Below the pieces are notes generated by a model that had not been told where the DNA came from, ran no database searches, and was given only the letters and a program-made list of their open reading frames with translations. The position numbers were made by a program, and so were the translations under genes. Below, one piece after another: positions 24,141-27,361 of a DNA stretch of 53,136 nt. This DNA comes from Kiloniellaceae bacterium. Lineage in GTDB: Bacteria; Pseudomonadota; Alphaproteobacteria; Kiloniellales; J153. The DNA is taken from the NCBI GenBank assembly GCA_021776115.1, contig JAJFGN010000008.1, positions 1 to 53,136 of the forward strand, in the 5' to 3' direction. Each line of letters begins with the position of its first letter. Within the stretch, counting starts at the first letter, position 1.

Positions 24141-24707
24141 CTAGCCGAAGTCCACTTCGACCGGCTGGCGGGCGGCGGCCTCGGCTTCCTCGATCTCGAA
24201 GAACTCGGCCTTGACGAAGTTGAAGGCGTTGGCCACCAGGTTGCCGGGGAACTGATCGATCGTCGTGTTGTTCTCGCGCACCGAGCCGTTGTAGTAGCGC
24301 CGGGCCGCTTGGATCTTGTTCTCGACCTCGGCGAGATCGCTCTGCAGACTGAGAAAGTTTTCGTTGGCCTTGAGGTCCGGATAACCTTCGGAGAGCGCGA
24401 AAAGGGACTTGAGCGCGCCGCTCAGAATATTCTCGCTCTGGGCCTGGGCCTGCGGGTTTCCTTGGTTGGCCAAGGCCTCCGAGCGCGCCTGGACGACCTT
24501 CTCCAGGGTCCCGGCCTCGTGCTTGGCGTAACCCTTGACCGTCTCCACCAAGTTGGGGATCAGGTTGTAGCGCCGCTTCATCTGCACCTCGATGTCGCTC
24601 CAGGCCTCGCGGACCTTGACGCGCAGACGCACCAGACCGTTGTAGGCGTAGATGACATAGAAGACAGTGGCGGCGGCAACGCCGAGCACCGTGTAGAGGA
24701 AAATCAT
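24141..24707 (-). CDS. lemA: LemA family protein
   Basis: 188 residues. One N-terminal membrane helix (YTVLGVAAATVFYVIYAYN) is followed by a long helical bundle outside the membrane. Family signatures are VREAWSDIEVQMKRRYNLIPNL (quoted here only by its ends, residues about 31-52), YYNGSVRENNT and FPGNLVA. The function is not settled; LemA proteins are widespread and usually found beside DUF2207 or TPM-domain genes, as here. It is the first gene of a two-gene unit. It diverges from ubiT with 187 bases between the starts, which contain the FNR-type box described separately. Confidence 0.93.
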   Translation of the reverse strand: MIFLYTVLGVAAATVFYVIYAYNGLVRLRVKVREAWSDIEVQMKRRYNLIPNLVETVKGYAKHEAGTLEKVVQARSEALANQGNPQAQAQSENILSGALKSLFALSEGYPDLKANENFLSLQSDLAEVENKIQAARRYYNGSVRENNTTIDQFPGNLVANAFNFVKAEFFEIEEAEAAARQPVEVDFG

Positions 24708-24846
24708 AATCTCATCCCAGGACGCATAAATAGAGGCTGCCAGCCTATGTCCGGGGCCGTCAACGCTTCGTTAACCGAGATTTCCCGGAAAGCACCTTCA
24801 AGTGGTCGACATCGGTTGTCGGCCGCGCCTCGTTCGTGACCCCGAC

Positions 24847-24888
24847 TTGATCTCAATCAAGGATACCGGGCCCGTCGTTGGGTATCGC
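24847..24888 (+). promoter_or_regulatory. FNR-type box and -10 element of ubiTUV
   Basis: TTGATCTCAATCAA at 24847-24860 is an exact match to the FNR/FnrL consensus TTGAT-N4-ATCAA. A -10-like TATCGC lies at 24883-24888. If the box is centred at -41.5, as in class II FNR promoters, transcription would start at about 24895, the A of the ubiT ATG. This predicts activation under low oxygen, as known for E. coli ubiTUV. The site also lies 140 bases before the divergent lemA, but the -10 supports only ubiT. Confidence 0.8.
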
Positions 24889-24894
24889 TCGATC

Positions 24895-25449
24895 ATGACG
24901 TCTCGCGCCTCCCTCATTCCCCGGTTTCCACGGGCGGGTGCGCAGTTGCTCGCGCCGCTGCCGTCGGGCCCCTTGTCGTTGCTGCTTGGACGCGCTGCCC
25001 GTGGTATGGCGGAGCGCCATCCGGGCCTGCTCACGCGATTGGGCCCGCATGCGGAAAAGCGCTTCCTGATCGACCCGACGGATCTGCCGCTTTCCTTTCT
25101 GATCCACCCACAAGCGGCCCGACCCCGCATCGAGGCGCTGAGCGCTTCGGCATCTCCCGCTTGGGACTGCAGGATCGCCGGGCCACTGGCGGCGCTCATC
25201 GGCATGATCCATGGGGCCTATGACGGGGATGCGCTGTTCTTCTCGCGTGACATCGTCATCGAAGGCGACACCGAGGCGGCCCTCGCCTTGCGCAACGCGC
25301 TCGACGACGCCGAGATCGATTTGTTCGAAGAGGCGGCGGAAAGCCTCGGTGCGCCCGGACGTATGGCGGGCCGGCGGTTGCGTCCACTTGCGCGAACCGC
25401 GAGCCGGATCACCGGGGTCGCGCTGACGCGAGCGGAGGAGCTTCTGTGA
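24895..25449 (+). CDS. ubiT: SCP2-domain protein UbiT of oxygen-independent ubiquinone synthesis
   Basis: 184 residues from the ATG at 24895. UbiT carries an SCP2 sterol-carrier fold that is thought to bind hydrophobic quinone precursors and acts with UbiU and UbiV, which hydroxylate the ring without oxygen. Visible features are the hydrophobic N-terminal segment (LLAPLPSGPLSLLLGRAARG) and the SCP2 core (AGPLAALIGMIHG, DALFFSRDIVIEGDTEAALALRNAL). I reject the upstream GTG at 24802 because it would place the FNR box inside the gene. There is no Shine-Dalgarno before the ATG, consistent with a leaderless mRNA. Its TGA overlaps the ubiU GTG by four bases. Confidence 0.9.
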   Translation: MTSRASLIPRFPRAGAQLLAPLPSGPLSLLLGRAARGMAERHPGLLTRLGPHAEKRFLIDPTDLPLSFLIHPQAARPRIEALSASASPAWDCRIAGPLAALIGMIHGAYDGDALFFSRDIVIEGDTEAALALRNALDDAEIDLFEEAAESLGAPGRMAGRRLRPLARTASRITGVALTRAEELL

Positions 25450-26438
25450 ACGTGCCCGAACTGGAGCTCGTCTGTCCAGCGGGAACGCCAGCGGCCCTGC
25501 GGGCGGCCGTGGACGCTGGAGCGCATACCGTCTATTGCGGCTTCGCGGACGAGACCAATGCCCGCAATTTCCCCGGGCTGAACTTTTCACGCGACGAGAT
25601 GGCCGCCGGCGCCGCCTATGCCCACGGGGCGGGCTCCAAGCTGCTGGTTGCTATCAACACCTTCCCGCGCGCTGGGGCCGAGGAGATCTGGCACCGCGCC
25701 GTGGATGATGCCCAAGCCGCGGGCGCCGATGCGGTAATCTTGGCCGATCTGGGGCTGTTGGCTTATGCGGCCGAGCACCGGCCTGGCCTCAGGCGCCACC
25801 TCTCGGTGCAAGCGGCGGCGGCGAATGCCGATGCGATCACGTTCTATGCCGAGACCTTCGGCGTGAAGCGGGTGGTGCTGCCCCGGGTATTGAGTGTCGA
25901 GGAGATCACGGCCATCAACCGCGATATCGACGTCGAGACCGAGGTCTTCGTCTTTGGCGGGCTCTGCGTGATGGCCGAGGGGCGCTGTTCGCTTTCCTCC
26001 TATGCCACCGGGCGTTCGCCTAACATGAGCGGCGCCTGCTCACCCGCCAGCCATGTGGTCTATACCGAGGAACAGGGTGAACTGGTCTCGCGCCTGGGTA
26101 ACTTCACCATCCACAAGGTGCCAAGGGATGCGCCGGCGCCCTATCCGACGCTATGCAAGGGTTGTTTCTCGGCCGGCGGACAGACTGGCCACGTGTTCGA
26201 GGACCCGATGAGCCTCGACGCCGCCGAGCTGATCCCGAGGCTGGCCGAGGCCGGGGTAACGGCACTGAAGATCGAGGGGCGCCAGCGCAGCCGTGCTTAT
26301 GTCTCGGCCGTGGTGAAAAGCTTCCGCCGGGCCACCGACGCGATTGCCGCCGGGCGCCCGGTGCCGGTCAGCGAGCTGGCACATCTGACCGAGGGGCAGT
26401 CGAGCACGCTCGGCGCTTATCGAAAGAACTGGCGCTAA
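25446..26438 (+). CDS. ubiU: U32 peptidase-like protein UbiU
   Basis: 330 residues starting at a GTG that overlaps the ubiT stop. UbiU forms a heterodimer with UbiV that hydroxylates ubiquinone precursors without oxygen; each holds a [4Fe-4S] cluster. The U32 start ELVCPAGTPAALRAAVDAGA and the cluster cysteines in the pattern C-x6-C-x16-C are present (CVMAEGRC, then SGACSPASH), with the fourth ligand in the LCKGC segment. The spacing matches the known E. coli ligands. The rest has the U32 TIM-barrel-like body. It is the middle gene of the ubiTUV operon, followed by ubiV after 29 bases. Confidence 0.95.
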   Translation: MNVPELELVCPAGTPAALRAAVDAGAHTVYCGFADETNARNFPGLNFSRDEMAAGAAYAHGAGSKLLVAINTFPRAGAEEIWHRAVDDAQAAGADAVILADLGLLAYAAEHRPGLRRHLSVQAAAANADAITFYAETFGVKRVVLPRVLSVEEITAINRDIDVETEVFVFGGLCVMAEGRCSLSSYATGRSPNMSGACSPASHVVYTEEQGELVSRLGNFTIHKVPRDAPAPYPTLCKGCFSAGGQTGHVFEDPMSLDAAELIPRLAEAGVTALKIEGRQRSRAYVSAVVKSFRRATDAIAAGRPVPVSELAHLTEGQSSTLGAYRKNWR

Positions 26439-26467
26439 CCAAGCGCCGCGAGCAAGGGAGTGGGACG

Positions 26468-27361
26468 TTGCGCCTGACACTAGGCCCGGTGTTCTATAAT
26501 TGGCCTGCGGATCAATGGTCCGACTTTTATGCCGGGATCGCCGACGAGGCCCCGGTGGACCGCGTGGTGATTGGCGAGGTCGTTTGTTCGAAACGTCTGC
26601 CCTTCTACCAAGACCACATCCCGAAAGCGGTCGAACGGCTCCAGCGCGGTGGGAAGGAGGTTGTGCTCGCCTCGCTGGGCTTAGTCACCCTGCCACGTGA
26701 ACGCAAGATGCTGTCCGATCTAGCCGAGTCCGGATTGCCGGTCGAGGTGAACGATCTGACGATGCTGCGTCACTTGAAGCCAGGCACGCGATTCACGGTC
26801 GGCCCGCTGGTCAATGTCTATAACGAAGGAACGCTGGGCTTGCTAGCAGGCCGTGGAGCAACAACGGTCTGCCTGCCGCCCGAACTGGGCTTTGCATCCG
26901 TTGCGGCACTGACTGCCGAGGGGCTGCGGCTTGGCGCCGAGATCGAGATCTGGGCATTCGGGCGCCTGCCGCTGGCGATTTCTGGGCGCTGTTATCACGC
27001 TCGCCTTGCGGGTCTAACCAAGGACTCTTGCCAGTTCGTCTGCGATGCGGACCCGGACGGGCTCGCCGTCGAAACCTTGGACGGCCAGCCCTTTCTCGCG
27101 GTCAACGGGGTCCAGACGGTCTCGGAATGCTGGGCTAACCTCGTGGGCGACCTGACGCGGCTGGCCGAGGTGGGGGTCGGCTCGCTGCGCCTCTCACCCC
27201 ATACCGGTGACATGACCGAAGTAGCGCGCCTGTTCCGGTCGGCAGCCGATTCCCGGATCGGCCCGGACGAGGCGATTGCCGGGCTTGCCGCACTGGCGCC
27301 GGAAAGACGTTTTTCAAACGGGTTCCTGTTCGGTCAATTCGGCGCAGAGTGGACCCATTGA
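26468..27361 (+). CDS. ubiV: U32 peptidase-like protein UbiV
   Basis: 297 residues from a TTG at 26468, with AAGGGAG at 26454-26460 upstream. The sequence from there (LTLGPVFYNWPADQWSDFY) is the normal UbiV N-terminus; the same frame is open much further up but that part overlaps ubiU and is not real. Four cluster cysteines are placed: one in GEVVCSKR (about residue 39) and three in CYHARLAGLTKDSCQFVC, spaced C-x12-C-x3-C as in E. coli UbiV. It pairs with UbiU. Last gene of the FNR-controlled operon. Confidence 0.93.
   Translation: MRLTLGPVFYNWPADQWSDFYAGIADEAPVDRVVIGEVVCSKRLPFYQDHIPKAVERLQRGGKEVVLASLGLVTLPRERKMLSDLAESGLPVEVNDLTMLRHLKPGTRFTVGPLVNVYNEGTLGLLAGRGATTVCLPPELGFASVAALTAEGLRLGAEIEIWAFGRLPLAISGRCYHARLAGLTKDSCQFVCDADPDGLAVETLDGQPFLAVNGVQTVSECWANLVGDLTRLAEVGVGSLRLSPHTGDMTEVARLFRSAADSRIGPDEAIAGLAALAPERRFSNGFLFGQFGAEWTH

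Follow-up and report, generated by a model that had tools for sequence, protein, structure and literature searches.

A putative FNR-type promoter that would begin ubiT mRNA at its own start codon, with a similar spacing at hemN in alphaproteobacteria

The closest known systems are as follows. In Escherichia coli, FNR activates the oxygen-independent ubiquinone genes from the ubiT promoter P2 and from the ubiUV promoter, and its sites F1 and F2 lie 36 and 33 nt upstream of the transcription start sites of ubiUV and ubiTp2, respectively (PMC10470549). Across the Pseudomonadota, 1001 of 1566 ubiT genes have predicted FNR sites upstream, with the median spacings to the start codon also reported (PMC11707229). 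Sphingopyxis granuli TFA has class II FNR boxes at -40.5 (ubiT) and -42.5 (hemN2) from the transcription start sites, with the consensus TTGAc/t-N4-g/aTCAA; according to the methods, box positions were inspected against transcription starts or start codons, so the reference point of these single values is uncertain (PMC7713065). In alphaproteobacteria, it is quite usual for a minority of mRNAs to be leaderless: in Bradyrhizobium japonicum, 192 transcription starts lie exactly at start codons, with an extended -10 element (TGnTA) upstream (PMC4842269), and in Magnetospirillum leaderless mRNAs account for about 5% of 5'-UTRs (PMC9549626).

The stretch of DNA that we analysed (the window) is 53,136 nt long and comes from a Kiloniellaceae bacterium (assembly GCA_021776115.1, contig JAJFGN010000008.1). 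It encodes UbiT, UbiU, and UbiV, all above curated NCBIfam cut-offs, so genes of the oxygen-independent ubiquinone pathway are present (Table 1). An earlier note, made from the sequence alone, had claimed that the centre of a perfect FNR-type box lies 41.5 nt ahead of the ubiT ATG, that TATCGC follows at the -10 position, and that ubiT lacks a Shine-Dalgarno sequence (SD). All three claims were borne out. The ATG occupies 24895-24897, and 24895 - 24853.5 is indeed 41.5 nt. TATCGC matches TATAAT at 3 of 6 positions, which makes it a weak -10 element, correctly placed for a start at the ATG; a sigma-70 scan found no promoter. The SD pairing energies are -3.8 kcal/mol for ubiT, -9.5 for ubiU (whose SD lies 6 nt upstream of the GTG), and -8.9 for ubiV. 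Values of -4.0 and -5.9 were obtained for two other genes in the window, which we take to be lemA-like and rne-like, so ubiT is not alone in having a weak SD.

Table 1. The ubiTUV operon, its putative promoter, and the divergent neighbour in the window
Feature	Position	Strand	Remarks
Divergent neighbour, presumably LemA-like	24141-24707	-	Outside the conserved unit; no conservation with the sister upstream of the box
Conserved block (FNR-type box and putative core promoter)	24842-24894	+	-53 to -1; matches the same-genus sister at 45 of 53 bases
FNR-type box TTGATCTCAATCAA	24847-24860	+	Perfect TTGAT-N4-ATCAA; centre 24853.5, which is -41.5 relative to the ubiT ATG
-10 hexamer TATCGC	24883-24888	+	-12 to -7; preceded by G at both -14 and -15
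Predicted transcription start (A of the ubiT ATG)	24895	+	From geometry; 24894-24896 by analogy with published promoters (PMC7713065)
ubiT (SCP2-domain accessory factor)	24895-25449	+	No clear SD; NCBIfam NF047962, 77.4 bits, cut-off 46.9
ubiU	25446-26438	+	GTG start overlapping the ubiT stop; SD GGAGGA at 25434-25439; NF047963, 505.4 bits, cut-off 440
ubiV	26468-27361	+	TTG start; SD AAGGGAG at 26454-26460; NF047965, 349.8 bits, cut-off 275

We think it likely that the conserved block is a class II promoter activated by a regulator of the FNR family, and that the ubiT mRNA is leaderless. A dimer of the regulator would bind at -41.5 and contact RNA polymerase at the weak -10 element, and the first transcribed base of ubiTUV would be the A of the ubiT ATG, give or take 1 nt. 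The AUG of ubiT would then be read without an SD; further along this mRNA, ubiU and ubiV would use their ordinary ones. If there were a leader with an SD, the distance from the box to the start codon would be free. A class II site should set the start of transcription about 41.5 nt downstream, however, so if the start codon is also the transcription start, then an insertion or deletion between the box and the ATG should harm expression. The distance could not drift, and it should be nearly frozen, as we find in a broad set of ubiT genes and again at hemN.

The window by itself says little about this. Its only perfect FNR box is the one before ubiT, and it has 15 sites with up to two mismatches, as compared to 8.65 expected (6 of 100 shuffles reach 15). 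On the other strand, an ATG also lies 41.5 nt from the ubiT box, and elsewhere in the genome one further box has an ATG at 41.5. Because ATGs occur at this distance by chance, a single genome proves little, and the weight must come from relatives.

The earlier note had called for a comparison of the upstream regions of related ubiT genes, and the same spacing is present both in a same-genus sister and in a wider set of loci. The sister (G003) has a UbiT that is 85% identical, a box (TTGATCTCCATCAA) at 41.5, and then the same TATCGC. Identity between the two genomes falls to 39 of 147 bases between -200 and -54, so the conserved block starts 5 nt before the box, and the DNA upstream of it is unrelated. 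Of the other members of the genus, G001 has no ubiT match, and G002 has a ubiT that is 48% identical to that of the window, without a box. The expectation that close relatives with ubiT would keep the box thus held for the sister but not for G002, whose ubiT apparently belongs to a different lineage.

The coding sequence raises the question of whether transcription begins at 24895 but translation begins later, from an in-frame codon such as the TTG at codon 18, with the intervening RNA as a leader. The sister has an ATG at codon 18, and the first 54 coding bases match the sister at 38 positions, as compared to 132 of the next 146. On the other hand, four of five rows of the UbiT alignment align from the ATG with a gap of at most one residue, and a later start would leave the nearly fixed distance from dyad to ATG unexplained. 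We consider a later start to be very unlikely.

The operon and its promoter may have a shared history. In a quick tree of UbiT, from which G002 was left out, the window groups with the sister, three Aurantimonas, and one metagenome-assembled genome (SH-aLRT 99), far from the UbiT of its own family (G005, G007, and G008). This grouping suggests that the ubiTUV operon (24895-27361) was transferred horizontally together with its promoter.

The 4.3-Mb genome contains 13 perfect boxes and no match to the reversed pattern. Perfect boxes precede ccoN and hemN (whose identities were confirmed by profile matches), which are usual targets of FNR. They also precede genes that we take to be SCO1/SenC-like and transhydrogenase-like. 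It is hardly credible that the ubiT box is a functionless chance match: the ATG on the other strand did come to lie at 41.5 by chance, but the sister retains the box, inside a conserved block with a sharp edge, and other boxes of the genome precede the usual targets. As a separate observation, one perfect box (L007) lies ahead of a gene that is presumably ribosome-hibernation-factor-like.

Which regulator would bind? HTH_Crp_2 has nine matches in the genome, six of them over the cut-off. Six loci were translated, and two of these have the FNR-type recognition helix. PMC7713065 describes what the conserved glutamate, serine, and arginine in this helix do. One of the two proteins (L042, FnrL-like) contains CSACNVRHLTLC, that is, CxxCxxxxxxxC, with a further cysteine later, and has the helix TTETVSR (E..SR). 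The other (L043, FixK-like) has CRAC (CxxC) at its N-terminus, lacks a third N-terminal cysteine, and has the helix TTETTSR. The best NCBIfam match of both is FnrL, at 179 and 157 bits, which falls short of the cut-off of 300. So the search for an fnr or fnrL gene that the earlier note had proposed did yield an FNR-type regulator, identified by its cysteine pattern and helix. This gene and the spacing in relatives support the class II FNR promoter of that note, with its predicted start at the ATG.

The activator of ubiT is most likely the FnrL-like protein, although it could be the FixK-like one. In that variant, which is compatible with our main explanation, the geometry and the leaderless mRNA would be the same, but the activator would lack the full set of Fe-S cysteines and the oxygen signal would reach it indirectly. 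The genome does encode such a protein, both regulators match the same models below cut-off, and both FnrN and FixK are functional in S. granuli (PMC7713065). As an oxygen sensor, the protein with all of the cysteines is the simpler choice, and the sequence of the box cannot tell the two regulators apart. We consider the FixK-like variant to be rather less likely.

A wider test of the proposed promoter is the distance between dyad and start codon across ubiT loci. We scored 79 of 80 named loci with one start-codon rule that prefers ATG (L109, a fragment, was left out, and L067 has too little upstream DNA to score). Within the compared stretch, L051 duplicates the sister (L015), L102 duplicates G040 (L017), and L162 duplicates L075. 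The loci were split by hand from record titles, with the distances already known, into a Rhodobacterales group of 38 and the remaining 41. Three loci that are not titled Rhodobacterales (L087, L122 from Maritalea, and L127) were placed in that group, and L081, which is titled Rhodovulum and has its dyad at 44.5, was placed in the remainder; the tree agrees with these placements.

Among the remaining 41 loci, 31 have one TTG-N8-CAA dyad each within 15-150 nt, and 10 have none. The dyad lies within 41.5-45.5 nt of the start codon in 25 of the 41: at 41.5 in 15 loci, 42.5 in four, 43.5 in one, 44.5 in four, and 45.5 in one (and elsewhere in six). By comparison, eight control motifs or spacings gave 0-4 matches each, with at most three at any one distance (AAC-N8-GTT at 133.5). 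The Rhodobacterales group has 38 dyads in 36 loci, none of them within 41.5-45.5 and 35 of them at 54-113; these genes mostly combine longer distances with stronger SDs. Both patterns, a fixed distance and a variable distance with a stronger SD, match what the proposed mechanism leads us to expect.

The start codons and SDs of all these loci point the same way, with a caveat. The start is ATG in 23 of 25 near loci (41.5-45.5) versus 19 of 40 far loci, and the median SD pairing is weaker in the near ones (-3.1 versus -5.75); the near exceptions are L059 and L068, with GTG. But the Rhodobacterales group supplies 35 of the 40 far loci, which confounds both contrasts with kinship.

What varies among the near loci is the sequence, far more than the distance. 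The half-site is TTGAT in Kiloniellaceae and Aurantimonas, TTGAC in Rhodoblastus and its kin, and TTGAG in Rhabdaerophilum. Four loci have TTGCG-N4-CGCAA with the geometry kept: G044 (L016), Pelagibius (L102), Mesorhizobium sp. RMAD-H1 (L092), and Nitratireductor (L107). As the recognition sequence has changed and the spacing has not, another regulator of the FNR family may have taken over in these bacteria. Across the 16 loci that were picked for a distance of 41.5 (15 named loci and the window), mean pairwise identity is 37% in the 34-nt spacer, 67% in the box, and 38% in the flank above the box (26% is expected by chance). These 16 loci share the motif T(-15)G(-14)nT(-12), which 12, 14, and 13 of them match at -15, -14, and -12, respectively; the window matches at -14 and -12, but lacks the T at -15.

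Could ubiT instead have a short ordinary leader from some other promoter, with the spacing of 41.5 inherited rather than constrained? What speaks for this is the weakness of the core promoter and the kinship of the loci: near rows fall within one part of the tree, with 43 rows (support 83), which also contains 16 far rows. However, with spacers at 37% identity, the equal length is not explained by scant change, and ubiT has no clear SD for a leader to use. Furthermore, a similar distance recurs at the unrelated gene hemN, while the distances at ccoN and at ubiT of the Rhodobacterales group vary. We consider an ordinary leader improbable.

Some loci without the near dyad are informative. Two Rhodoblastus loci that lack a dyad keep a decayed version of it, TTGACCGGAGTTAA at 41.5 and TTAACCATTGTTAA at 40.5. 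In two strains of Rhodoblastus acidophilus (L082 and L084), the box lies 105 nt further off, with additional DNA, palindromic in part, separating the -10 region from the ubiT ATG; if the proposed promoter is correct, this insert is a natural loss of the leaderless arrangement. We also noticed that two metagenome-assembled genomes of Robiginitomaculum (L058 and L069) carry a shorter dyad upstream of ubiT, namely TTGA-N4-TCAA, with its centre 39.5 nt from the ATG and with TAGGAT shortly before the ATG. This is perhaps a third version of the design.

The near geometry is not universal. In a sample of 41 of the 386 genomes of the class, with 29 ubiT loci besides the window, the near loci are L162 (41.5) and L179 (42.5), and many of the others have longer distances or no box, so for ubiT the design is limited to one part of the family. 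It was not seen in most ubiT genes of the order relatives, in the Rhizobiaceae that we tried, or in the Rhodobacterales group. The ubiT genes from a plasmid search have distances of 72.5 (Ensifer), 54.5 (Chelatococcus), 86.5 (S. chiapasense), and 79.5 (S. meliloti). On the Ensifer and Chelatococcus plasmids (L316 and L317), ubiTUV is divergent from genes of the UbiD and UbiX families, with nirK and genes of the NnrS or NnrU families nearby. In 31 stretches from genomes of the class, we recognised no neighbourhood like that of Sphingopyxis, with ubiTUV beside a fixK-like gene.

The second gene is hemN, which encodes the oxygen-independent coproporphyrinogen oxidase. Among relatives in the order (30 loci scored, out of 53 matches listed), the dyad lies 41.5-45.5 nt before the start in 24: at 41.5 in nine loci, 42.5 in eight, 43.5 in three, and 45.5 in four. 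Three others are at 35.5, and each of these has a second ATG 6 nt on, at 41.5; in two loci the dyad is elsewhere, and in one it is absent. (By our rule, the starts in L216 and L226 precede the projected ones, by 21 and 57 nt.) The hemN of our genome (L004, box at 1501-1514) is at 45.5, as are those of the other three members of the genus, with an SD-like pairing of -5.6. Of 27 further hemN loci from the class, 11 are at 40.5-43.5, five have dyads only elsewhere, and 11 have none. Overall, 17 distinct frames of at least 300 codons in the hemN loci have a dyad exactly 41.5 nt before an ATG (two of them via a second ATG, and in L291 the ATG differs from the scored hemN start). Position -12 is T in 12 of these frames, -11 is A in 11, -7 is T in 15, and -1 is C in 12.

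As a contrast, consider ccoN, which is another FNR target in the same genomes. Using 27 of 30 loci (in L268-L270, the match begins far inside the protein), we found none in the near range, and two have no dyad. The difference in near counts between hemN and ccoN has a Fisher P of 1.5e-10 if kinship is ignored. The median SD pairing is -3.05 for hemN in the order and -4.7 for ccoN.

A gene that is presumably DUF2189-like is divergent from the hemN box, and in our genome its ATG is at 42.5. We considered whether it has a second leaderless mRNA from that box and rejected this: at the nearest long frame in three members of the genus, the distances are 40.5, 48.5, and 49.5. Since the distance is not constant, we do not claim divergent leaderless use.

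Across 58 relatives, perfect boxes with an ATG at 38.5-45.5 show a modest excess at 41.5, with 29 among the 150 matches listed (the other seven distances have 9, 16, 21, 14, 14, 21, and 26). Of these 29, we inspected 20: 12 begin reading frames of under 25 codons, five are hemN, and the other three have 65, 139, and at least 323 codons. The longest is, we assume, citrate-synthase-like, and it has GGAGG before its start.

Taken together, the comparisons at ubiT and hemN indicate that the distance from promoter to start codon is under constraint. At ubiT, we infer protein binding, an oxygen response, the 5' end, and leaderless translation. A broader and more tentative idea, which we would call doubtful in its full extent, is that alphaproteobacteria have a recurrent design in which FNR-family sites are fused to start codons, giving leaderless mRNAs for genes that replace oxygen-using enzymes (at least ubiT and hemN). 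Low oxygen would then set both transcription and SD-independent initiation, and the design would survive changes of half-site and travel with an operon. We can only speculate that low oxygen favours leaderless translation.

If the idea is true, then the physiological trigger for a set of leaderless mRNAs would be known, namely low oxygen via FNR-type regulators. The distance from box to ATG would be a purely computational test for leaderless mRNAs, gene by gene and in any genome. Also, the oxygen-independent routes to ubiquinone and heme would be linked by their mode of translation as well as by their regulator, and there would be a concrete system for asking if cells at low oxygen favour SD-independent initiation.

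One described case counts against the leaderless reading: in the gonococcus, an anaerobically induced RNA that begins with AUG was untranslated in a fusion test (PMC3032703). In the literature that we searched, which mostly excluded subscription journals, we found no link between FNR-type promoters and leaderless mRNAs of ubiT or hemN. The accessible text of PMC11707229 is silent on leaderless mRNA, on hemN, and on any fixed distance to the start codon. The accessible passages of the S. granuli study do not give the distance from box to start codon, and the word "leaderless" is absent from its main text (PMC7713065), as it is from the main text on E. coli (PMC10470549).

The arrangement in E. 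coli differs from that in the window: there, ubiT is transcribed from two starts, ubiUV has a promoter of its own within the one intergenic region that they share, and the half-sites are imperfect (PMC10470549). The leaderless mRNAs of B. japonicum and Magnetospirillum are not linked to FNR or FixK promoters in the accessible portions of those papers (PMC4842269, PMC9549626). The TGnTA of B. japonicum resembles the T(-15)G(-14)nT(-12) of the ubiT loci at 41.5. Thus, FNR control of ubiTUV and leaderless mRNAs in alphaproteobacteria were both already known. What appears to be new, judging from the literature that we searched, is the joining of the two at ubiT and at hemN, and the parallel at hemN makes this more than a finding about a single promoter.
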